Shown here piece after piece: positions 16,017 through 39,348 of a stretch of DNA of 64,000 nucleotides (position 1 is the stretch's first letter; each line of letters begins with the position of its first letter). The notes under the pieces were generated by a model. That model was not told where the DNA came from and made no database searches. It saw nothing but the letters and a program-made list of their open reading frames with translations. The stretch lies in NCBI GenBank assembly GCA_028824295.1, contig JAPPED010000001.1:124001-188000 (forward strand), in the 5' to 3' direction. A program made the translations under genes and the position numbers. The DNA comes from Rhodospirillales bacterium (GTDB lineage Bacteria > Pseudomonadota > Alphaproteobacteria > TMED109).

Positions 16017-17096
16017 TCAACCGTCTGTTGGAAACACGAACGCCCGCGCGGGATCCAGCCGCACGAGGATCTCGGCACCTTCAGCGGGCGCCGAATCGGC
16101 CGGCACGCGGGCATGCAGAATTCCGCTGTCATCTCGTGGCTGGATCGCGACCACGGCGAGCGCCCCCAGGCTGCGAACGCTTCGAACCGTCACGGGGGTT
16201 CCGTCACCGAGCAGCAACCCTTCTTCCCGCACCAGCAGCTCGGCTGCACTGCCTTCCGAAAATCCGGGCGCTCCGAGCGGCCCGAACGGCGTGGTCACCT
16301 GTCCACCCTGCACTTTCACCGGTATCCGGTTTACATGCCCCAGGATCCCCGCACAAAAGGCGTCGTTGGGATGCGAATAGATTTCCTCCGGCGTACCAAG
16401 CTGTAGGACCCTCCCGTCGTGCATCACACTGATGCGGTCGGCAAACCGCATCGCATCTTCCGGATTGTGGCCGACGAGGACCGCGACGGTCCCGGAATCA
16501 CGAAGAACCCGGCAAACCGCGGCAGCCAGGTCGGTCCGAAGTTGCGGGTCAAGGCCGGCAAACGGCTCGTCGAGCAACATCACGTCCGGATCGGTGGCGA
16601 GAGCTCTTGCAAGCGCAACCCGTTGTGCTTCACCCCCGGACAACGTGTGCGGCAGGCGCTCGGCAACGTCGGCAAGTTCTACGCGCTCCAGCATCTCCTG
16701 CGCCCGCGTGGCACGAGTCGGGCGGGCTCGCCCGTTGAGGCCGAACGCCACGTTGTCTGCGGCGCTCAGATGCGGGAAGAGCGCGGCATTCTGGAACACC
16801 ATCCCCACCCGGCGCTGTTCCGGTGGTACTTCGATGGACCTGTTGGCCAATACGCGGCCATCAACGACGATGGAGCCACCGTGAATGTGTTCGATGCCGG
16901 CGATGGCCCGCAGCAACGTGGTCTTGCCCGCTCCGGACGGTCCGACAATCCACAGCACCTCTCCGTGCTTGGCATCGAGGAAAATGTCAGTAATCAGCGG
17001 CTTTCCACTGGCCTGCGATCGAACCGACAGGCCCCGGACTTCCAAACCGCGCTTCGATTCACCTGCCATCATTCTCAGGTCCGCGCTGTCGAACAT
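16017..17096 (-). CDS. fbpC: ABC transporter ATP-binding protein, FbpC-like
   Basis: Cytoplasmic ATPase of an iron(III)-type importer. Walker A is GPSGAGKTT, followed by the Q-loop FQNAALFPH, signature LSGGEAQR, Walker B VMLLDEPFAGLD and switch GHNPEDAM. A C-terminal TOBE-like domain makes up the last ~110 residues. With ATG 17096 the protein has 359 residues; 17072 is an alternative. The frame stays open to 17345, but that extra segment has no family resemblance. This leaves a 226-nt gap after the permease gene, larger than elsewhere in the operon. Confidence 0.92.
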   Translation of the reverse strand: MFDSADLRMMAGESKRGLEVRGLSVRSQASGKPLITDIFLDAKHGEVLWIVGPSGAGKTTLLRAIAGIEHIHGGSIVVDGRVLANRSIEVPPEQRRVGMVFQNAALFPHLSAADNVAFGLNGRARPTRATRAQEMLERVELADVAERLPHTLSGGEAQRVALARALATDPDVMLLDEPFAGLDPQLRTDLAAAVCRVLRDSGTVAVLVGHNPEDAMRFADRISVMHDGRVLQLGTPEEIYSHPNDAFCAGILGHVNRIPVKVQGGQVTTPFGPLGAPGFSEGSAAELLVREEGLLLGDGTPVTVRSVRSLGALAVVAIQPRDDSGILHARVPADSAPAEGAEILVRLDPARAFVFPTDG

Positions 17097-17322
17097 GCCA
17101 CCATCGCATCTATCTGACCCAAGAAGCAATGGCAAAGTGCGCAAGTTCCGGAACCTTGCACGTCTTCCACGGGCGGTTCGGCTCGTTGGGTGACCGGCAC
17201 ATCGTGGTGGTTTGCGTGATGAACTCGCGCCGTACCGTCCAAGATGGTAGGTCGCCAGCAACGGAACGGGGCAGGACCAGTGCCGATTCGACGGTGGCAA
17301 CGGTCCGGGCAGCCTCTTTCGG

Positions 17323-19005
17323 TCAGGATGAGGTCTCGGCCGCAACGCTTGGCTGCAGGAAGCGCCGCGACAGCACGATCAGGGGAACCAGCCCAACGGC
17401 AACAATCGCAATGGCAGGGAGAGCCGCGTCCGCCATCCTTTCTTCCTGCGCCATTTCGAACGCTCGCACTGCCAACGTGTTGAAATCAAATGGTCGCAGG
17501 ATCAACGTGGCGGGGAGTTCCTTCATCACCTCAACGAACACCAGGGCCGCGGCGGTGGCAATGCCCCCACGGAGAAGTGGCACGTGCACCCGGACCAACA
17601 TGCCGCGAGGGAACACTCCCAATGTCCGCGCAGCCGCGTCGAGAGTGCCTGGAATGCGGTGGTACGAACTCTCGAGCGCGTTCATCGATACGGCGAGAAA
17701 GCGGACCGCATAGGCAAACAGCAGTACGGTCACGGTCCCGGACAGCAGCAGGCCGGTGCCAGCCCCGAATATCATCCGGCTCACGTCATCCACAGCGTGA
17801 TCGAACAACGAGCACAATCCCAATACGCCAACCGCCACGACCACGCCTGGCACCGCATATCCCGCGCCGGCAGTCCGGGCAAACGGGCGAACGATGGCTG
17901 GATCAAGGCGCAGGCCGAACACCACCAACCACGCGATCGCCACAGTCAGGGCTGTAGCGGCGAGTGCCAGGCCCAGAGTGTTCAGCATGATCGCAGGGAA
18001 CGCGGGATCGATCGGGGCGCCGGCGCGCAGATGCCACCAAGCGAGAAAGGCGGCGGGTAGCACGAAGCCAAGTAGTACCGGCAACCCGCAGCCGAGCATG
18101 GCCATCGCCGCCCGCCGGCCGCGCAACACATACCGGATAACGGGTCGGCTCCGATCGTTTTCCGGATGGTAGCGGAGCGACTTGCGCAGCCGTCGTTCCG
18201 CCCACAAGACCGCAAGGACCACCAGCAGCAGGACGGTAGCCAGCCGGGCCGCGGCACCGATATCCCCGAACCCGAACCATGCTCGGTAGATCCCCGTCGT
18301 AAAGGTTCCGATGCCAAACAACTCCATGACGCCGATATCATTCAGCGTTTCCATGACTGCCAGCGCACAGCCGGCGACCAAGGCGGGACGCGCCAGCGGC
18401 ACCGCGAGAGTGCGAAAGATTCGAACCGGCCCCCGGCCCAGCAAGCGGCCGGTTTCAATCAATGTCGCCGACTGGGTTGCAAACGCCGTCTGGACGAGGA
18501 GGTACGCGTAGGGATAGAGCACGAGGGAAAGCACGACGGTCGCCCCAAGCGGTGAACGCACCGAGGGAAACCAGTAGTCGTCCTTGCCCCAGTCGAAGTA
18601 ATCCCGCAACGCTGTCTGGATGGGCCCAGCGAACTCGAGCAGGTCACCGTAGACAAAGGCTGCGATGTAGCCGGGCAGGGCCAGCGGCAACACCAGCGCC
18701 CAACTGAAGAACGCACGTCCCGGGAAATCGCACATGGCGATCAGCCAAGCCGTGCTGACCCCGAGAATCGCGGTCCCCAACGCCACTCCCAGGGCGATCC
18801 CGACCGTGTTGACTATGTAACCAGCGAGTACCGTATCAACGAGGTGCGGCCACAGATCGTTGGCTGGTGCCGAGAGGCCGAACACCACTACCAGGAGTGG
18901 CCCGACCAGCAGCAGCGATGTCACCGACGCGGTCCACGTCCAGCTGTTCAGCGTACGGATGCGGCGCCCGGCGCTGCTCAGGCGGGCCAGGGCGGCGCCC
19001 ATCAT
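17323..19005 (-). CDS. fbpB: ABC transporter permease, FbpB-like (fused double permease)
   Basis: 560-residue membrane protein with two tandem permease domains, about 12 helices in total. Each half carries an EAA-type coupling loop: GRLLGRGPVRIFRTLAVPLARPA around residue 190 and ARTLGVFPRGMLVRVHVPLLRGG in the second half. This two-in-one architecture is typical of ferric iron FbpB/SfuB permeases. It starts 2 nt after the fbpA stop. Confidence 0.93.
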   Translation of the reverse strand: MMGAALARLSSAGRRIRTLNSWTWTASVTSLLLVGPLLVVVFGLSAPANDLWPHLVDTVLAGYIVNTVGIALGVALGTAILGVSTAWLIAMCDFPGRAFFSWALVLPLALPGYIAAFVYGDLLEFAGPIQTALRDYFDWGKDDYWFPSVRSPLGATVVLSLVLYPYAYLLVQTAFATQSATLIETGRLLGRGPVRIFRTLAVPLARPALVAGCALAVMETLNDIGVMELFGIGTFTTGIYRAWFGFGDIGAAARLATVLLLVVLAVLWAERRLRKSLRYHPENDRSRPVIRYVLRGRRAAMAMLGCGLPVLLGFVLPAAFLAWWHLRAGAPIDPAFPAIMLNTLGLALAATALTVAIAWLVVFGLRLDPAIVRPFARTAGAGYAVPGVVVAVGVLGLCSLFDHAVDDVSRMIFGAGTGLLLSGTVTVLLFAYAVRFLAVSMNALESSYHRIPGTLDAAARTLGVFPRGMLVRVHVPLLRGGIATAAALVFVEVMKELPATLILRPFDFNTLAVRAFEMAQEERMADAALPAIAIVAVGLVPLIVLSRRFLQPSVAAETSS

Positions 19006-19007
19006 GC

Positions 19008-20036
19008 CTACTTCCAGCCCGCGCGATCGGCGATCCGGACCGCATCAGCATTCAACTTGCCGAATTCCACCACGGGAACGTCATCGGGTGTGAAACTCTG
19101 CCATTTGGCCACTTCGCCGCTCGGCTGCACATCGGGATGTACCGGGAACTCGTTGTTGATCTCTGCGTACAGAGACTGGGCTTCCGGAGAGGCAAGGAAC
19201 TCGATAAAGGCGAGTGCCAGCTCGGGATGGGGCGCGTGGCGGGCAACACCGGCGCCGCTGACATTGACGTGCGTGCCCATCCGATCGTCGGCCGGGAAGT
19301 GAAGCGCCGTATTGCTGATGGAATCAGATTCTTCCGAACCGAGCATCAATGCGTAGTAGTAGCTGTTGACAATCGCCACATCGGCTTCGCCCGCGGCCAC
19401 GGCCCGGATCTGGTCGCGGTCACCGCCACTCGGGGGGCGGGCAAGGTTGCCGACAACACCGCGGGCCCATTGCTCCGCCCTCTCAGGCCCAAAATTGGCA
19501 ATGACCGCCGCGATCAGTGACTGGTTGTAAATGTTGCTACTGGAACGCACGGCCACCCTTCCCTCCCAGGTGGAAGCCGCAAGATCAATGTAGCCACCAA
19601 GGTCTGTGGCGATGCTGTAGGAACTGACCCGGTCCGTTGCGTAGACGACGGCGCGGGCGCGCAGGCTCAATCCAAACCACTGGTTGCCGGGATCCCGATA
19701 GTCAGAAGGGACCACGCTGTGGAGAAACTCCGAGTCGACCGGTTGCAGCAAGCCTGCGTCGACGGCCCGCCACAGGTTGCCGGCGTCAACCGTCAGCAGG
19801 ACGTCGGCCGGCGAATACTCGCCTTCCGCGATCATGCGCTGGATAAGCTGCCCGCCGGATGCGGCCACGATCCTGACGTCCGCACCCGTTTTCGCCGTGA
19901 ACGCGTCCAGGAGCGGGCGCATCAATGCTTCCTTGCGCGACGAATACAGATTGACTGACTCGGCGGCTGCCGGGGTGGCAGCCAAGATCGAGGAGCCGGC
20001 AATTGTGAGCGTCAGCGCAAGGGTCAGGACACGCAT
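19008..20036 (-). CDS. fbpA: Iron(III)-binding periplasmic protein, FbpA-like
   Basis: Solute-binding protein of 342 residues. The signal peptide is MRVLTLALTLTIAGSSILAA, with cleavage near PAAAESV. The mature N-terminus SVNLYSSRKEALMRPLL is typical of FbpA/FutA. The iron-coordinating tyrosines are in IVNSYYYALM. ATG 20036 was chosen because it begins directly at the signal peptide. It heads an operon fbpA-fbpB-fbpC. The ligand is probably Fe3+; related proteins for other ligands cannot be excluded. Confidence 0.92.
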   Translation of the reverse strand: MRVLTLALTLTIAGSSILAATPAAAESVNLYSSRKEALMRPLLDAFTAKTGADVRIVAASGGQLIQRMIAEGEYSPADVLLTVDAGNLWRAVDAGLLQPVDSEFLHSVVPSDYRDPGNQWFGLSLRARAVVYATDRVSSYSIATDLGGYIDLAASTWEGRVAVRSSSNIYNQSLIAAVIANFGPERAEQWARGVVGNLARPPSGGDRDQIRAVAAGEADVAIVNSYYYALMLGSEESDSISNTALHFPADDRMGTHVNVSGAGVARHAPHPELALAFIEFLASPEAQSLYAEINNEFPVHPDVQPSGEVAKWQSFTPDDVPVVEFGKLNADAVRIADRAGWK

Positions 20037-20048
20037 TGAGCATCCATT

Positions 20049-20067
20049 GCAAGTAACAATTATTCGC
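20049..20067 (-). promoter_or_regulatory. Candidate Fur-like operator upstream of fbpA
   Basis: A 19-nt imperfect palindrome, GCGAATAATTGTTACTTGC on the minus strand, with six of nine symmetric pairs. It lies 12 nt upstream of the fbpA start in an AT-rich patch. Length and position fit a Fur-family operator on an iron importer, but the match to the classical Fur box is only partial, and alphaproteobacteria may use Irr or RirA instead. Confidence 0.3.
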
Positions 20068-20244
20068 AGGTTCATAGCCGATGAATCAAGTGGCCGCAAC
20101 CCACTTCGACCTCTTGACGGAAGTTCCGGATACCGGTGATGCGGCTGGCTCAGCCCGTCGACCTACGCGTTATTGTGGGCGCCGCTGATCACACGCTCGG
20201 ATGGCACGTCGACCGCACCGAAGACCACTTCTCAGAGGATGGCT

Positions 20245-20954: not shown

Positions 20955-22205
20955 TCAATCCAGCAGTCCGCGAAACGGCAGCCAGTTCACCGGCTGACCG
21001 GGCCGCACTTCGCTGACGTTCTCCGGCAACACCGCGAGTCCTTCGGCCCAAGCCACCGACGAGAGGATGCCGGCGCCGGAGCGCGGAAACAGTTCAAGCA
21101 CCTCAGGGTGCTCCGTAGAACGGCGGCGGACCCGCAGGAACTCGCGACGACCAGTTTTTTTCTTGTACGTGAAGCCACACTCGGCCGGCACGCCGGACGG
21201 GAACTTCCAATCCTCCCCAGCCAGCCTAGCGATGACCGGCCGCGCAATCACCAGGAACATCACGAAGGCAGCAACCGGATTGCCCGGTAAGCCAACGACC
21301 GGAGTCTCGGCAAACTGGCCCAGGCCGACCGGGCGTCCCGGCTTGACCGCGAGGCGCCAGAAGTAGAGGGAACCGGCGTCGCCCAGCGTCCGCCGTACAT
21401 GATCCTCCTCGCTTTCCGACATTCCTCCGGAGACGATCAGCAGATCATGGAAACTTGCCGCCCGCGCGAGCTCTTCGTGCACGTCCTTGGCGCGATCGAC
21501 CACGATGCCGAGATCACTGACGTCGGCGCCGGTAGCGCGGGCGAGCGCGCAGAGCATGGTCCGGTTGGAATCGTAGATCTGTCCCACTTCAAGGGCGCGC
21601 CCAGGGTCAGCGAGCTCATCCCCTGTTGACAGCACCCCGACGCGCAGCCGACTCCGTACCTTGACCGACGCGCGTCCCAGAGCCGCCAGGATGCCGGTTT
21701 CTGCGGGCCCGATTCGCTGACCTGCCCGCAGCACCGTTGCCCCTGCCTGCAGGTCTTCACCAGCAGAGCGTGCGTTCGCTCCCCGCCTCAGCCCGGCAGG
21801 TACGTACACGCGTTGGCCTCGGAGCTCCGCGTCCTCCTCCATCACGACCGTGTCGGCATCCGAAGGAAGCACGGCGCCGGTGAGAACCCTCACGGTGCTC
21901 TCGTCAGGCAGGTCACCAGCCCAGGGATGCCCCGCACCTGCACTACCGATCAGCTTCAGCCACCCTTCACCTTTCCCTGCCAAGTCAGCGAACCGGAACG
22001 CATAACCGTCGACGGCCGTGTTTGCGTGCGGCGGCACGTCGCGGTCGCTGGTGATGTCTTCAGCGAGAGTCCGTCCCGGGGATGACCCGACCGGCACGTC
22101 GACCAGCAAGGTCGACGGCTTGAGTCGACGCCCCAGCTCGGCATGAGCATCCGCAAGCGGAATCAGCCCACCGCCGAAGGCGAAGCAGTCGTCCTTAAGC
22201 TGCAC
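20955..22205 (-). CDS. moeA: Molybdopterin molybdotransferase MoeA (paralogue 1)
   Basis: Inserts molybdate into adenylylated molybdopterin. 416 residues, GTG start at 22205. Family blocks are ANTAVDGYAFRFADL, VRVLTGAVLPSDADTVVMEED, VGVLSTGDEL, YDSNRTML, DLLIVSGGMSESEEDHV, and VGLPGNPVAAFVMF. It overlaps mobB by 11 nt and is the last gene of the polyferredoxin-mobB-moeA unit. A second, diverged MoeA is encoded at 38131. The location beside TorD and DUF3305/3306 suggests this copy serves a dedicated molybdo- or tungstoenzyme. Confidence 0.93.
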   Translation of the reverse strand: MQLKDDCFAFGGGLIPLADAHAELGRRLKPSTLLVDVPVGSSPGRTLAEDITSDRDVPPHANTAVDGYAFRFADLAGKGEGWLKLIGSAGAGHPWAGDLPDESTVRVLTGAVLPSDADTVVMEEDAELRGQRVYVPAGLRRGANARSAGEDLQAGATVLRAGQRIGPAETGILAALGRASVKVRSRLRVGVLSTGDELADPGRALEVGQIYDSNRTMLCALARATGADVSDLGIVVDRAKDVHEELARAASFHDLLIVSGGMSESEEDHVRRTLGDAGSLYFWRLAVKPGRPVGLGQFAETPVVGLPGNPVAAFVMFLVIARPVIARLAGEDWKFPSGVPAECGFTYKKKTGRREFLRVRRRSTEHPEVLELFPRSGAGILSSVAWAEGLAVLPENVSEVRPGQPVNWLPFRGLLD

Positions 22206-22704
22206 GGTTCGAGATGCCGAGTTCGACGAGAATGAAGTCGACGATCGCGGTCTCGTCGTTCAGCGGAAGGACCCTTCGATCGAATTCCGAAACCGGGGCA
22301 TCGGCAGCAATGGCGATGATCATGGGGTCGTCGGCAGCGAGCAACGGACGTCTCAAGGCAGGACGATGCACTTCGATCTTCTTGTGGGCCCCGCCCTTCC
22401 AGCCTTCGATCAGCAGGACGTCGACCGTTTCCATCCGTGCGATCAAACGCTCAGGGGTGCGGTCAACATTGCGCTCTTCATGGATCAGCGCCCAGCGCTG
22501 TCCCGAGGCGACAAGGACCTCGCGCGCACCGGCTTCGCGGTGAACAAAACTGTCTTTCCCCGGCCGGTCAATTTCAAAGCTGGCGTGCGCGTGCTTCAGG
22601 GTCGAAACCGTATGGCCGCGCCGGTTGAATTCCGGGATCAGGCGAGCGATCAGCGACGTCTTTCCGCTTCCCTGCCATCCAACGATTCCGATCCTGGGAA
22701 TCAT
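22195..22704 (-). CDS. mobB: Molybdopterin-guanine dinucleotide biosynthesis protein MobB
   Basis: GTP-binding adaptor for bis-MGD cofactor synthesis. The 169-residue protein starts MIPRIGIVGWQGSGKTSL, with the P-loop at residues 9-17. The MobB blocks STLKHAHASFEIDRPGKDSF and VDVLLIEGWKGGAHKKIEV are intact. It overlaps the polyferredoxin gene by 4 nt and moeA by 11 nt, so the three genes are very likely translated together. Confidence 0.95.
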   Translation of the reverse strand: MIPRIGIVGWQGSGKTSLIARLIPEFNRRGHTVSTLKHAHASFEIDRPGKDSFVHREAGAREVLVASGQRWALIHEERNVDRTPERLIARMETVDVLLIEGWKGGAHKKIEVHRPALRRPLLAADDPMIIAIAADAPVSEFDRRVLPLNDETAIVDFILVELGISNRAA

Positions 22705-24422
22705 TTTCGCTCTCCGTCCGAGCCCTTGCCTCCTGGCCCCTCACCTGAACCGGACCGGTAGTCGTCCGTTGTGCGGACCCTGGGGCGGGCCGTTTCGCCG
22801 GCGGCGAGGGGATCACGGAACTGGTCGATGACCCGGCAATCCGCACACATTTTCACACGCTGCTCCAGCCGGGGATCCATCGCCAACATGGGATGGCCGG
22901 CAAGCCTTTGCAGTGTCCGTTCGATGGACTGACGCACACCGAACGGTTTTCCGCAAGAGATGCACGCAAATGGCTGCTCTTCGTGCAGCGTGCGCCCGGC
23001 GCCGGGACCAAGGTCCGGCCGCAGTCTTGCCTGCAGCGTGATCGCGTCCTCCGGGCAGGTCGCGCGACACAGGCCGCACTGGACGCACGCGTCTTCCTGA
23101 AATCCCAATCGGGGAGTGTCGGGATCATCCTGCAGCGCGCCGGTCGGGCAAGCGCCGACGCAGGCCAGGCACAAGGTACAAGCGTTCGGGTCAACCTCGA
23201 TGGTGCCGAAGGCCGCATCCTTGGGCAGAATGATCGTATCGGCGGCAACCGCGGCGTGCGCGTGCAGGTGACGGACAGCCTGCAGCGCGCCGGCGCGTCG
23301 TTCGCCGAGCGCCAGGAATTCGGCCGATGGCCAGTCTGCTCCGCGTTCGAGGGATTGCAGGATGGCGAGCAGGGTGTCCGGGTCCGCCGTGGCGGAATGG
23401 ACCGCGCGGCCCCCGAACCCAAGAGCCTCAGTAATGGCGTTCACCACTGCCATTTGCTCGTCAATGGGACGGAGAGTATCCGGACGGGCCGGGTTGCTGA
23501 CGCACACGACATGGGAAGCGCCCCAGGCCAGGGCCATCGTCATCAATTCGGCGCCCGCTTGTGAAACGACTCCCAATGAGAGCGGTAGCAGGCGGGAAAG
23601 ATCTTGGCCGGCCTGTTCCCGCGCCGCTTCGATCAGGTCGGCTCCGAATCCGTCGCCGTGCAGGACCAGGATTGGAGCGTGTCCGGCATGCTCGTGCCAC
23701 GCCCGCAACGCGGCGCGCAGTCGTCGCAAGGATGCGTCTTCGGCCGGTAGGTCGTAGCGAAGCGCTCCCGTCGGACAGGCACCGACGCACAGACCGCAAC
23801 CGGCGCAAACCAGCGGGTCCAGCGCCACGTGGTCGCCCGCGGGTGCGATCGCCCCGAGGGGGCAGAGGTCAAGGCAACGCGTGCAACCCGAAATTCGGCT
23901 GCGCGCGTGCGCGCAGTATTCGCTACGAACGTCGACGAATAGCGGGTACTCAAGGTCGCCACGGCACTCGGCGACCGCTTGCAAGCCGGCCTTCAGGGCC
24001 CGCGGGTTCCGCGGATCACAACGCACATACCCTCGTCGGAGCTCGTGAGCCTGGACCGGTGGCGGACCGCGCGAGAGATCGAGGACCGCATCCGCCTCCA
24101 GCCGTTCGTCACTGTCTCGCAGCGTCACGATCCAGGCGCCCACGTGCCCGGCCACCTGCGCTGGCCTGCCCACCACGACACGAACGGACGCCTGCACCGG
24201 ATGGTCGGCGGTGTCGCCCGGGCCATCGGCGGACAAGACCGTCACCGCATTGCCGTCAGCCAACTCTCGGGCAGCCGGCACCGCGTGTGCCCACGTCCCG
24301 ATGATCAGCACCCTTCCGTGCCCGTGCACGTGGAGCGCGCGTCCTGGCGGCACGGACTCCTTCGTCCACGCGTCCGACGCGGCGTCCAGAGGTGAACGAT
24401 TCGTTGCCACTGCAGCCGGCAC
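22701..24422 (-). CDS. Polyferredoxin of the formate dehydrogenase maturation type (four 4Fe-4S motifs)
   Basis: 573 residues. Four ferredoxin-like cysteine clusters are visible: CTRCLDLCP at 180-187, CAGCGLCVGACP at 206-217, CTLCLACVGACP at 415-426 and CVQCGLCRATCP at 446-457. Two more CxxC pairs near the C-terminus (487-490 and 526-529) may bind zinc. Residues 245-360 form a separate alpha/beta domain between the cluster pairs, possibly MvhD/FlpD-like. No signal peptide is seen, so it is cytoplasmic. Similar proteins sit beside DUF3305, DUF3306 and TorD genes in alphaproteobacterial formate dehydrogenase loci. The GTG start at 24422 is uncertain. Confidence 0.85.
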   Translation of the reverse strand: MPAAVATNRSPLDAASDAWTKESVPPGRALHVHGHGRVLIIGTWAHAVPAARELADGNAVTVLSADGPGDTADHPVQASVRVVVGRPAQVAGHVGAWIVTLRDSDERLEADAVLDLSRGPPPVQAHELRRGYVRCDPRNPRALKAGLQAVAECRGDLEYPLFVDVRSEYCAHARSRISGCTRCLDLCPLGAIAPAGDHVALDPLVCAGCGLCVGACPTGALRYDLPAEDASLRRLRAALRAWHEHAGHAPILVLHGDGFGADLIEAAREQAGQDLSRLLPLSLGVVSQAGAELMTMALAWGASHVVCVSNPARPDTLRPIDEQMAVVNAITEALGFGGRAVHSATADPDTLLAILQSLERGADWPSAEFLALGERRAGALQAVRHLHAHAAVAADTIILPKDAAFGTIEVDPNACTLCLACVGACPTGALQDDPDTPRLGFQEDACVQCGLCRATCPEDAITLQARLRPDLGPGAGRTLHEEQPFACISCGKPFGVRQSIERTLQRLAGHPMLAMDPRLEQRVKMCADCRVIDQFRDPLAAGETARPRVRTTDDYRSGSGEGPGGKGSDGERK

Positions 24423-24681
24423 CTCTCAGGCAGGCGGAAACGACATCTGTACAGCTTAGCGCCAGAACACTGCGCGAGGTGTCGATAAACCGTCCTCCCA
24501 CGTCTTCAAGCAGGAATGCCGCAATGGTTCGGCAGTCCCAGGGGATCGGCGGCCGCAGCCGAGCGGCTTGCTCGCACTGTCGAAGGAACAACAGAGATTC
24601 AATTCCTTGGGGCGGTATCACCTCGGCTTCGGGCAGTCGCGTAGTATTCGGACTCCTCAGTGGATAGCGAGGAGAGGCGCG

Positions 24682-25134
24682 ATGCGGACCCGACTGCCGG
24701 TGCGAATCACGCTTGAGCGCCGTGAAGGTTCAGGGCGATGGGCCTCCACCGTCTGGCAAGCGGTGGCAGTCGTGCCCGAAAGCGACTCCTCGGTTTCCGA
24801 ATCGCCGCAGCTCGTGTTGGAACTTCATCGCAAGGAAACAGAAGGGTACAGAACAAATCTCGCTGCCAATCGTGCCGTCTACGTGGTTCTCCGGCCTGGT
24901 CCTGACGGCACCGTCTCTGAACCGTTCCTGGCGACCGTCTGCCCATTCGAAGCACAGGATTACGCGGATGACGCCGATTCGCGCGTCGACGCCGTTCCCA
25001 TGCCGACTTCGGTTGCAGCCTGGGTTACGGCCTTCGTGCGCCGCCATCATGTCGAAGAGCCGTTCCGGAAACGCAAGCGGGGACCCAGGTCGTCGCCGGA
25101 ATCCTTTGCCCGACCGCCCCGGTCTCAGCGATGA
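24682..25134 (+). CDS. DUF3305 domain protein
   Basis: 150-residue soluble protein starting MRTRLPVRITLERREGSGRWAS, matching the start of DUF3305 proteins. Also visible are VWQAVAVVPES, LVLELHRKETEGYRTNL, and a basic C-terminus ending FRKRKRGPRSSPESFARP. ATG 24682 follows a strong GAGGAGAGG site. These proteins of unknown biochemical role occur in formate dehydrogenase maturation loci of alphaproteobacteria. It overlaps the DUF3306 gene by 4 nt and is divergent from the polyferredoxin gene. Confidence 0.85.
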   Translation: MRTRLPVRITLERREGSGRWASTVWQAVAVVPESDSSVSESPQLVLELHRKETEGYRTNLAANRAVYVVLRPGPDGTVSEPFLATVCPFEAQDYADDADSRVDAVPMPTSVAAWVTAFVRRHHVEEPFRKRKRGPRSSPESFARPPRSQR

Positions 25135-25655
25135 GAAACTTCTTCAGCCGATGGTCGAAGCGGGCTGTGGAGGCTCGACGGCCGGAGCCGCCTGATGCCC
25201 CGTCCGATGAAACCGCAGCCGATCAAGCCGCTTCGCCGACGATAAGCCGAGATCCCGACGATACCGATCTCGCGCAGCCAGCCGACTTGCCCAATGTGGC
25301 AGAGCTGGGACCGGAGGCGGATTATCGCCCCTTCCTGAAACGCTCCGTTGCACCTGCGCTACGGCGCCTGGCGCTTCGACGGTTGTGGCAGAGCGACCCT
25401 GTCCTCGCCAACCTGGACGGGTTGAATGACTACGATGAAGATTTTGCGTCTCTCCACAGAACCGGCGCGGAAGCGATCGCCGACGCAGTCCGGGCGGGCC
25501 GGCGGTACGCCCGTGAGCCGATCGCGGCACGCGATGCTCCCGACGCCCCGCCGGCAGAGCTGCAGGCTGATTCAGGGACAGAATTGGCCACCGCCGAGTC
25601 CGAGGCTGCAGCCGTGAATGCGGACGATCCTGAGGTCCCGGGGGAACCGGCTTGA
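25131..25655 (+). CDS. DUF3306 domain protein
   Basis: 174 residues. It begins MRNFFSRWSKRAVEARR, the typical DUF3306 N-terminal amphipathic segment. The conserved core is YRPFLKRSVAPALRRLALRRLW followed by DPVLANLDGLNDYDEDF. The rest is Ala/Glu/Asp-rich and probably disordered. ATGA overlap with DUF3305 and TTGA overlap with torD indicate a tightly coupled operon. Function is unknown beyond association with formate dehydrogenase maturation. Confidence 0.85.
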   Translation: MRNFFSRWSKRAVEARRPEPPDAPSDETAADQAASPTISRDPDDTDLAQPADLPNVAELGPEADYRPFLKRSVAPALRRLALRRLWQSDPVLANLDGLNDYDEDFASLHRTGAEAIADAVRAGRRYAREPIAARDAPDAPPAELQADSGTELATAESEAAAVNADDPEVPGEPA

Positions 25656-26299
25656 GCACGGGCCCGGTCGGCGACGACACCGCGCCCCATCTGGACGCCG
25701 AAGATCACTCGCGGTCGCAGTGCTACCTGCTGTTCTCCGGGCTCCTCCACGCGCCGCCGGCGCAGGACTTGCTGGCCGCAACCGCCGCACTGCAGGGCGA
25801 CGCCGGCCTGTCGCTGCTCGGCTCACTCAACGAACTGGGTGCGTGCACCCGCCAGATGACCGAGGAGGCCATTCGCCACGAATACGAAGATCTTTTTCTA
25901 GGCTTGGGTGAGGTTGGGATCAATCCGTACCAGTCGTATTACCTCACCGGGTTCATGTACGAGAAGCCGCTGGCTGAACTCAGGCGCACGTTCCAGATCC
26001 TTGGGGTCCGCGCGACGCGCTCCACCGGTGACCCGGAGGATCACGCTGCTGCCATCCTCGAAGCAATGGCCGGGCTGATTGCTGGTGCCTTTGGACCGCC
26101 CGCCCCCCTGTCATCGCAAAAGGATTTCTTTGACCAGCACATCTGGACCTGGATGCCGGCCCTGTTCAACGACCTCGCCGTCCATCCGGGCGCCGTGTTC
26201 TACCGGGCCGTCGGGTCCGCCGGCGCCGCGTTTCTCGACACGGAGCAGCGCGCGTTCGAGCAGGTTTCGCCGATGGTCCGAGATCATGGATCTCAGTGA
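25652..26299 (+). CDS. TorD/DmsD-family molybdoenzyme chaperone
   Basis: Cytoplasmic all-helical chaperone that binds Tat signal peptides and shields the apo-enzyme during cofactor insertion. 215 residues. Family features are the early RSQCYLLFSGLLHAPP and EYEDLFLGLGEVGINPYQSYYLTGFMYEKPL, plus EDHAAAILEAMAGLI and DFFDQHIWTWMPALFNDL. It starts with TTG at 25652 inside the DUF3306 stop (TTGA). Its gene end overlaps the convergent DUF4396 gene by 7 nt. Its client, expected to be a Tat-exported Mo/W enzyme, is not encoded in the window. Confidence 0.9.
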   Translation: MSTGPVGDDTAPHLDAEDHSRSQCYLLFSGLLHAPPAQDLLAATAALQGDAGLSLLGSLNELGACTRQMTEEAIRHEYEDLFLGLGEVGINPYQSYYLTGFMYEKPLAELRRTFQILGVRATRSTGDPEDHAAAILEAMAGLIAGAFGPPAPLSSQKDFFDQHIWTWMPALFNDLAVHPGAVFYRAVGSAGAAFLDTEQRAFEQVSPMVRDHGSQ

Positions 26300-26742
26300 C
26301 AGGATTTTCCCAGAACCCGCAAGCGCCAATAGTTGTACGGGAGCGGCACCAGGAACCCGGCCGCCAGCATCGGCGGGATCACCCACCATGTCAGCCGCGC
26401 CCCTCCCGTCAGCAGAATGTCCACGGCATTCATAGCCACTTCCATCCCGAGCATCGACAGCAGCGACATCCCGAAGGCAGTCCGCATCGCCTCGCGCAAC
26501 CGCATGATCCGCGCCAGCATCACGGTCTCGATGGCGAAGCTGGTGATAATCCCGTTCACCATGGCGAGGCTCATGATCAACCAGACGGGCCAGGGAACGG
26601 CCAGCAGCTGGCATACCCAAATGGTTCCCAGGTCGCCCAGCGCACAGCCGAACAGGCAGCCCGCGGTATTGCGGCAGGCCAGGCGGAACACCTGCCAGCG
26701 TGAACTCCCAACCGGGAGGGTGCTCGAAACGCTCATCCCCAC
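26293..26742 (-). CDS. DUF4396-like four-helix membrane protein
   Basis: 149 residues with about four hydrophobic segments. Recognisable blocks are CRNTAGCLFGCALGDLGTIW, WPVWLIMSLAMVNGIITSF, GMSLLSMLGMEVAMNAVD, LTWWVIPPMLAAGFLVPLPY and a Cys-His end. It resembles DUF4396 proteins, whose role is unknown. It starts 3 nt after the eno stop, with GTG 26742 or ATG 26736, so it is probably cotranscribed with eno in the place where ftsB is often found in relatives. Its end overlaps torD. Confidence 0.75.
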   Translation of the reverse strand: MGMSVSSTLPVGSSRWQVFRLACRNTAGCLFGCALGDLGTIWVCQLLAVPWPVWLIMSLAMVNGIITSFAIETVMLARIMRLREAMRTAFGMSLLSMLGMEVAMNAVDILLTGGARLTWWVIPPMLAAGFLVPLPYNYWRLRVLGKSCH

Positions 26743-36855: not shown

Positions 36856-37658
36856 ACGACCGACTCCGCTCGATCCTTGAGGCCAAACGGGACCGCGTGT
36901 CGGCACAACGTGTGGCGGTGCCGGAAATCGAACTGGAGCGACGGGCAACCGCGCAGGAGCCCCCGCGTGGGTTTGCGTCCGCGCTGCGACAGCCAGTCGC
37001 CCGTGGCACCTACGGCCTGATTGCAGAAATCAAGCGAGCGAGCCCCTCCAAGGGACGCTTGCGGGACGATTTCGATCCGGCAGTGCTGGCCGGCGCTTTG
37101 CATGACGGGGGGGCAGCCTGTATTTCGGTATTGACGGACGAACCGTTCTTTGAGGGTTCGGACGCGCATCTCATGGCTGCGCGTGCCGCCACTCCCGTCC
37201 CGGTGCTCCGCAAGGATTTCATGCTCGACCCGTATCAGATTCTCGAATCCCGCTCCCTCGGAGCAGACTGCGTGCTGCTGATTCTGGCCGCGCTGGATGA
37301 CTCGGAGGCATCGATAATGGCGCGCGACGCAAAGGCGCTCGGGATGGACGTCCTGGTCGAGGTGCACGACGAGCGCGAACTTGATCGTGCCGGTCCGCTC
37401 GGAGCGGACCTCGTCGGAATCAATAACCGCAACCTGCACACGTTCGAGGTTGATCTGGCGACTACGGAACGCCTGGCGGCCCTGGCGCCAGCTGGGGCTG
37501 ACCTCGTGGCGGAGAGCGGTCTCGGCGGGCCGGATGATCTCCACCGTCTGGCCAATTGTGGTGTCCGACGCTTCCTGATCGGTGAAACCCTGATGCGCAG
37601 TCCGGACGTCACGGAAGGCGTCCGCGCCCTTCTGGCCCGCACGGCGGACGCAGCGTGA
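36852..37658 (+). CDS. trpC: Indole-3-glycerol-phosphate synthase
   Basis: Fourth step of tryptophan synthesis. 268 residues in a TIM barrel. Motifs are [66 protein letters not shown] and [11 protein letters not shown]. Start ATG 36852 overlaps the trpD stop (ATGA). It is monofunctional; no TrpF domain is attached. Confidence 0.97.
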
Positions 37659-38134
37659 GCGAACGGTTTACCCATCTGGACGAGTCCGGCCGCGCGCGCA
37701 TGGTGGACGTGGGCGAGAAGGCGGTCACCCGCCGGACCGCCACAGCGGCCGCACGCGTCACGATGTCGGCATCCACGCTGCGGATGATCCTGGACGGCGG
37801 CCACCAGAAAGGCGACGTGCTTGGCGTCGCGCGGGTTGCCGGAATCATGGCGGCCAAGCGCACCCACGAACTGATCCCCCTGTGCCACCCGTTGCCGCTC
37901 GACTCCGTTGCCGTGGAACTGAGCTGCCGACCCGAGGAGGAGGCAGTGGAGATCCGGGCGACGTGCGCCACCTCCGCCAAGACTGGCGTGGAGATGGAGG
38001 CGCTGTCGGCGGCGAGCGTAGCCGCCCTCACCGTGTACGACATGTGCAAGTCGGTGGATCGTGCGATGCGAATTGACGCTGTCCGGTTGCTCCACAAGGC
38101 CGGCGGCAAGTCAGGAACGTTCCGCGCATCATGA
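37655..38134 (+). CDS. moaC: Cyclic pyranopterin monophosphate synthase
   Basis: Second step of molybdenum cofactor synthesis. 159 residues. Active-site blocks are [29 protein letters not shown] and [23 protein letters not shown] start overlapping the trpC stop. The trpC-moaC-moeA link is characteristic of alphaproteobacteria. Confidence 0.97.
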
Positions 38135-39348
38135 TTTCGGTCACGGACGCCCGGCAACGGATTCTTGAAGCCATGCCGCTGGTGGCCACCGAGCGGGTTC
38201 CGTTGACAAATGCGCTGGGCCGGGTGCTCGCCACCGATGTAACGGCACGTACCGACCAGCCGCCGTCGGCGGTTTCCGCGATGGACGGCTACGCCGTACG
38301 CTCGGCGGACGTGCAGGCGACCCCTTGCGACCTGATCGTCGTCGGCGAGGCCCCTGCCGGCCGTCCGTTTGACGGATCCGTCGAAGCCGGCGAGGCGGTG
38401 CGCATCTTCACCGGCGCCCCGCTTCCCGACGGAACCGACAGCGTCGTCATCCAAGAAAACACCGAACCTGTGCAGAGCAGTGCAGTCCGTGTCCTGAACG
38501 GAGTCGCCTGCGGAAAACACGTCCGTGGTCGGGGCATCGATTTCAGGCAGGGCGATCCACTGGTGACGGCAGGGAGCCTGCTCACAGCCCGCGACGTCGG
38601 TCTGTCGGCAGCCGCCGATTGGCCTTGGTTGAGTGTCCGGCGCCGCCCGCGGGTGGCCCTCCTCGCCACGGGTGACGAAATCGTCCTGCCGGGTGAAGCA
38701 CGCAGATCGGGACAGATCGTCTCGTCCAATACGTTTGCGCTGGAATCCATGATACGGGCCGTTGGTGGCGATGCGGTCGATCTGTCGCTTGTTCCCGACG
38801 ACCCGGCGGCGCTTCGCGCGGCAATCGACGGGGTGCGTTCATTTGACCTGCTGGTGACGACCGGCGGCGTGTCGGTCGGCGCCTACGACCTGGTCGGCCA
38901 GGCCCTCCAATCGGCAGGCCTGAATCGACATTTCTGGAAGATCGCCATGCGTCCCGGTAAGCCTCTCCTGTTTGGGACGCTTCCAGAGGGTCCACCCGTC
39001 CTGGGATTTCCCGGCAATCCGGTATCCACCTACGTGTGCGGCCTCGTGTTTCTTCTGCCGGCATTGCGGACGATGCTGGGGCTCGACCCGGGCCCGCGCT
39101 TAGTGCAGGCGGAACTAGGCCGCGATCTGCCCGCGAACGACGTGCGGGAAGACTATCTCCGGGCGTCCACCAGACGGGATGACACCGGCTCGATCACGGT
39201 CCATCCCTTCGAGCTTCAGGACAGTTCCGTGCTTTCACTGCTGGCCCGGGCTGACTGCCTGGTCATTCGTCCCCCGCACGCTCCCGCGGCCCCCGCCGGA
39301 ACGCCCGTCACTGCGCTTCCTTTCCCGGCTGCTGCCGGCAGCACGTGA
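38131..39348 (+). CDS. moeA: Molybdopterin molybdotransferase MoeA (paralogue 2)
   Basis: 405 residues. Blocks are [80 protein letters not shown], and [13 protein letters not shown]. Start ATG 38131 overlaps the moaC stop by 4 nt. This copy sits at the housekeeping position after trp genes and moaC, so it is the likely general MoeA; the paralogue at 20955 is specialised by context. Confidence 0.95.

Follow-up and report, generated by a model that had tools for sequence, protein, structure and literature searches.

The gene set considered here and its link to formate dehydrogenase (FDH) have already been published, in the form of the alphaproteobacterial DUF3305-DUF3306-torD/dmsD-'fdh tat'-fdhGHI operon (PMC4464133). 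For other organisms, it is established that FdhD is a sulfurtransferase and that proteins of the TorD family act as chaperones in Tat proofreading and cofactor insertion (PMC10609526, PMC4148689). The second paper also describes FdhM of Campylobacter jejuni, a TorD-family chaperone that is dedicated to a periplasmic, Tat-dependent FDH and whose gene lies upstream of fdhA (PMC4148689). The locus described here, from a Rhodospirillales bacterium (GCA_028824295.1), is predicted to encode a chaperone of the same kind, and it shares with the published operon the same genes in the same order inside each of two halves. Unlike in that operon and in C. jejuni, however, the halves are apart: the break lies exactly between torD and a small Tat gene (fdhX), the halves are 35 kb from each other on opposite strands, and torD has a convergent DUF4396 neighbour. 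As far as our literature search shows, this genus-wide separation of the two halves is the only new element. Based on the observed gene identities, linkage conservation, single copies, purifying selection and break site, we consider it highly probable that a standard alphaproteobacterial cluster for a Tat-dependent, quinone-reducing FDH was broken between torD and fdhX in the ancestor of the genus, and that the locus represents its maturation half.

The window, i.e., the whole 64-kb stretch of DNA that was analysed (G000:C1:124001-188000), belongs to an assembly of 3.02 Mb in 35 contigs that is 97.9% complete. Its minus strand carries moeA (20955-22205; PF03453/PF00994/PF03454), which is of the FDH-cluster type and predicted to act in molybdate/tungstate insertion; mobB (22195-22704; PF03205, E=5e-45; TIGR00176 above cut-off), a putative adaptor GTPase of MGD biosynthesis; and the gene for the multi-cluster polyferredoxin of the FDH cluster (22701-24422; Fer4 family matches and Cys motifs). 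Divergent from this arm, the plus strand encodes DUF3305 (24568-25134, with the conserved domain from ~24676; PF11749, E=3e-29, 102 bits against a gathering cut-off of 25), DUF3306 (25131-25655; PF11748, E=1e-20) and the NarJ/TorD-family chaperone TorD (25652-26299; PF02613, E=5e-23, 82 bits against a gathering cut-off of 22). Open reading frames and family assignments agree with the two tightly packed arms that a sequence-only reading had proposed, with overlaps of 11 nt (moeA/mobB) and 4 nt (mobB/polyferredoxin) on one strand and 4 nt each (DUF3305/DUF3306 and DUF3306/torD) on the other. We likewise confirmed that the 3' end of torD, after which the genus-specific break follows, overlaps by 7 nt with a convergent DUF4396 gene (26293-26742, minus strand; PF14342, E=7e-32); this neighbour was seen in genus loci only and is no part of the FDH cluster elsewhere.

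The polyferredoxin had been read as a four-cluster protein, and its cysteines suffice for four clusters, with three CxxCxxCxxxC motifs (at 206, 415 and 446) and one irregular four-Cys motif (C170/C180/C183/C187); two extra CxxC pairs (487/490 and 526/529) are found near the C-terminus. Divergence from DUF3305 is common to this polyferredoxin gene and its homologues in many of the FDH loci compared in this analysis. The FDH-cluster moeA represents a paralogue, since a second, housekeeping-type moeA (38131-39348) is located within a trpC-moaC-moeA-lexA-gltX block, where moaC and moeA span 37655-39348. Two MoeA proteins are encoded in each genome of the genus, and the paralogue is possibly specialised for Mo or W. 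On its other side, the maturation set adjoins the genes for an ATPase, a fused permease and a binding protein (16017-20099), which form an ABC transporter of the ferric-iron/aminoethylphosphonate type that is kept in the genus.

The sequence-only reading had described the set as being without its enzyme and had allowed for an enzyme encoded elsewhere. The latter proved right, as an fdh operon lies outside the window, while the former is misleading: the operon (G000:C1:101947-109519) shares the contig with the maturation set, from which it lies 35 kb to the left, and is 14.5 kb beyond the edge of the window. Within this catalytic half, which is on the opposite strand from torD, the gene order is fdhX-fdhA-fdhB-fdhC-channel-DUF6494-fdhD. 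FdhA (C1:106440-109259, minus strand; 940 aa), found through a PF00384 search of the genome, carries a twin-arginine Tat signal (LDRRAFLRNSG), a 4Fe-4S binding site and a Cys ligand (C184, in ARICHSTT) at the position that aligns with Sec in other FDHs, and is a near full-length homologue of the solved FdhA in PDB 9vap_A (1402 bits, residues 9-939). Directly downstream follow FdhB (4Fe-4S subunit) and FdhC (cytochrome-b-type subunit), and then an ion-channel-like gene, a DUF6494-like gene and fdhD; the names of the genes after fdhA come from reading and from homology to their counterparts in other FDH loci. The small Tat-signal protein encoded directly upstream of fdhA (E=4e-12) sits between torD and fdhA elsewhere, whereas in the genus torD is not directly upstream of these two genes, a difference of arrangement and not of protein membership. 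The operon is thus predicted to encode a Tat-dependent, quinone-linked FDH (FdhABC) that would couple formate oxidation to quinone. Upstream of the operon lies a fragment (G000:C1:110681-111562; L008:6681-7562) identified by reading as a truncated reverse transcriptase of the group II intron type, which was not recovered at the same place in the other genus members.

To determine the usual arrangement, 80 loci that encode the nearest FdhA relatives in public genomes were compared; 5 genus loci and 4 with too little flank were set apart. In all 71 non-genus loci with flanking sequence, torD is directly upstream of fdhA, which bears out the earlier expectation that the set is associated with FDH and that the catalytic gene normally follows torD. 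Usually, torD is in turn preceded by DUF3305-DUF3306 and the divergent polyferredoxin gene; in L086, L097 and L107, the DUF3305/polyferredoxin part is located downstream, with the position of torD unchanged. The contig of L053 (JAJDZN010000302.1) is labelled Bryobacterales; the FdhA encoded in its fdh operon shares 98% identity with that of the genus, and the contig probably belongs to a MAG that was mis-binned or misnamed. In a sample of 153 alphaproteobacterial genomes from across the class, FdhA was called at E<=1e-200 in 22 and DUF3306 in 23, and all 22 genomes with FdhA have DUF3306 (Fisher p ~1e-25). The gap between DUF3306 and fdhA amounts to 1.2-1.8 kb in 20 genomes and 4.7 kb in one, so that fdhA is close by in 21 other genomes of the sample, as compared to 39.9 kb in the window's genome.

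The sole genome of this sample with DUF3306 but without FdhA at that threshold, G133, is that of a distant alphaproteobacterium in which polyferredoxin, fdhD, a mobA-like gene, DUF3305 and DUF3306 are found together with no adjoining torD or fdhA (C3 ~108700-113100; L161:9683-14065). It has an FdsA-type FDH, NapA-like, NarG-like and other Mo enzymes, and its set is a better candidate for a maturation set without the usual enzyme.

Both halves are found on one contig, ~35-50 kb apart and with the same intervening genes, in six of the seven genomes of this genus of uncultured Alphaproteobacteria, including that of the window. The intervening order is SnoaL, afuAB, tatC, serS, glpK, rpsB-tsf-pyrH-frr-uppS-dxr-rseP-bamA-ompH-lpxD-fabZ-lpxA-lpxB, gltA and iorAB. 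In the seventh genome (G024), the halves are on two contigs that both end within the interval between them. The absence of DUF3306 and TorD in G023 is explained by a contig end, as its contig begins inside the DUF3305 region. This genus-wide conservation rules out a chance adjacency of the maturation genes.

DUF3306 was not found in the family outgroups searched, and for this reason we infer from other families that the halves were once contiguous in this lineage. In four mapped outgroups, the gene order is pyrG-secG-trpE-moeA-lexA-gltA-lpxB; compared to these, the lexA block and gltA are no longer linked in the genus, and gltA is turned round. Furthermore, relative to the family outgroups, the eno-gltX and gltA-lpxB blocks have swapped places. 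These changes of gene order indicate that the break of the FDH cluster fell inside a region that underwent rearrangement in the ancestor of the genus. From the orientation of the halves, a single inversion would restore a normal cluster, but one simple inversion is ruled out as the whole history; more than one rearrangement is needed, because the eno-gltX and gltA-lpxB blocks were exchanged as well. As a separate observation, the match to gltA (citrate synthase) contains one TGA in three genus members (G022, G024 and G027). Trees of FdhA and of the maturation proteins resolve no shared sister group for the genus, and it is therefore possible that the genus acquired the two halves separately.

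Turning to the other Mo/W enzymes of the genome, the PF00384 search returned six proteins, FdhA and five others: NuoG on C8 (named by reading), an FdsA-type, NAD-linked FDH on C21 (TIGR01591 above cut-off), and proteins on C3, C13 and C34. The search for FDHs and Tat-signal molybdoenzymes that the sequence-only reading had suggested thus yielded the Tat-signal FdhA on C1 and the FdsA-type FDH on C21. It is conceivable, albeit improbable, that the set serves, alone or besides FdhA, one of the other enzymes, be it the cytosolic NAD-linked FdsA, the bis-MGD-type proteins on C3, C13 and C34, or an MsrP/YedY-like protein beside the C34 enzyme. Apart from the number of further PF00384 proteins, such a role would be in line with G133, which keeps polyferredoxin-fdhD-mobA-DUF3305-DUF3306 without adjoining fdhA or torD and has an FdsA-type enzyme, and with the correlation of FDH-linked TorD with yedYZ (PMC4464133). 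However, no other PF00384 protein is linked to DUF3305, DUF3306 or TorD; all genomes of the class sample with FdhA also carry DUF3306; among the PF00384 proteins here, a Tat signal is recognisable by inspection in FdhA alone; and the TorD homologue encoded upstream of fdh in Campylobacter is FDH-specific (PMC4148689). Moreover, no separate DUF3306 or TorD belongs to the FdsA on C21, as both are single-copy in this genome, where torD is the only TorD/NarJ-family gene; the same holds across the genus, with one TorD and one DUF3306 per genome except at contig ends.

That the set is left over from a lost enzyme, as the missing catalytic gene after torD might suggest and as the earlier reading had considered, is scarcely credible, since the cognate fdhA is present and, throughout the genus, the ORFs are intact and evolve under purifying selection (dN/dS 0.03-0.42 for the set). 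Pairwise comparisons between genus members gave dN/dS values of 0.00-0.42 throughout, with all genes under purifying selection: 0.02-0.03 for fdhA, 0.10-0.12 for moeA, 0.03-0.07 for mobB, 0.17-0.21 for polyferredoxin, 0.17-0.25 for torD and 0.15-0.42 for DUF3305/DUF3306. No unusual acceleration of the maturation half between genera was found (distance ratio 4.06 vs 3.76). All genus genomes appear to be MAGs, yet an assembly or binning artefact is very unlikely, as six separately assembled genomes share one gene order across the two break sites, as far as their contigs extend. The locus is thus neither an orphan nor a relic but the product of a conserved rearrangement.

With regard to the least characterised members of the set, DUF3305 matches the C-terminus of the NCBIfam MobA-DUF3305 model NF011058 (E=3e-14, below the model's whole-protein cut-off), and in G133 it directly follows the mobA-like gene (named by reading). 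Its AlphaFold2 model is a compact alpha/beta domain (pLDDT 89.9), for which a PDB search revealed no convincing match (best Foldseek E=0.23; best VIA Z 3.2, rmsd 5.0 over 50 residues). From the model match, the neighbouring gene and the compact predicted fold, a role in cofactor handling is at best a reasonable guess. More specifically, DUF3305 could be an undescribed bis-MGD-handling domain that delivers the cofactor to FDH together with MobA/MobB and the polyferredoxin, although we regard this as rather doubtful. The DUF3306 model (pLDDT 63.6) is mostly disordered, with one conserved helical motif (~LRRRALRxLWRSNPVLANLDGLNDYDEDF). In G025, DUF3306 is part of a 989-aa stop-free frame overlapping the divergent polyferredoxin gene in antisense (G025:C117:27447-27743; L018), and this frame is probably open by chance, given the GC-rich DNA.

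Every biochemical step in this organism, as well as the roles of DUF3305, DUF3306 and the polyferredoxin, is what we infer. MobB and the cluster's own MoeA would help to make Mo/W-bis-MGD, which FdhD, encoded in the distant half, would sulfurate. TorD would keep hold of the Tat signal of FdhA while the cofactor goes in, and DUF3305, DUF3306 and the polyferredoxin may assist in further steps. FdhA-FdhB would then be exported via Tat, and FdhC would hand the electrons from formate to quinone. Since the DUF3305 gene is apart from the enzyme here, the set can presumably work in trans, and co-transcription with fdhA would not be needed.

Chaperones are often assigned to enzymes on the basis of conserved gene neighbourhood. 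The genus represents a clean exception, in which chaperone and enzyme partners must be found by co-occurrence. The split suggests that the tight linkage of torD and fdhA is dispensable, and what DUF3305, DUF3306 and the polyferredoxin each do should therefore be testable in trans.
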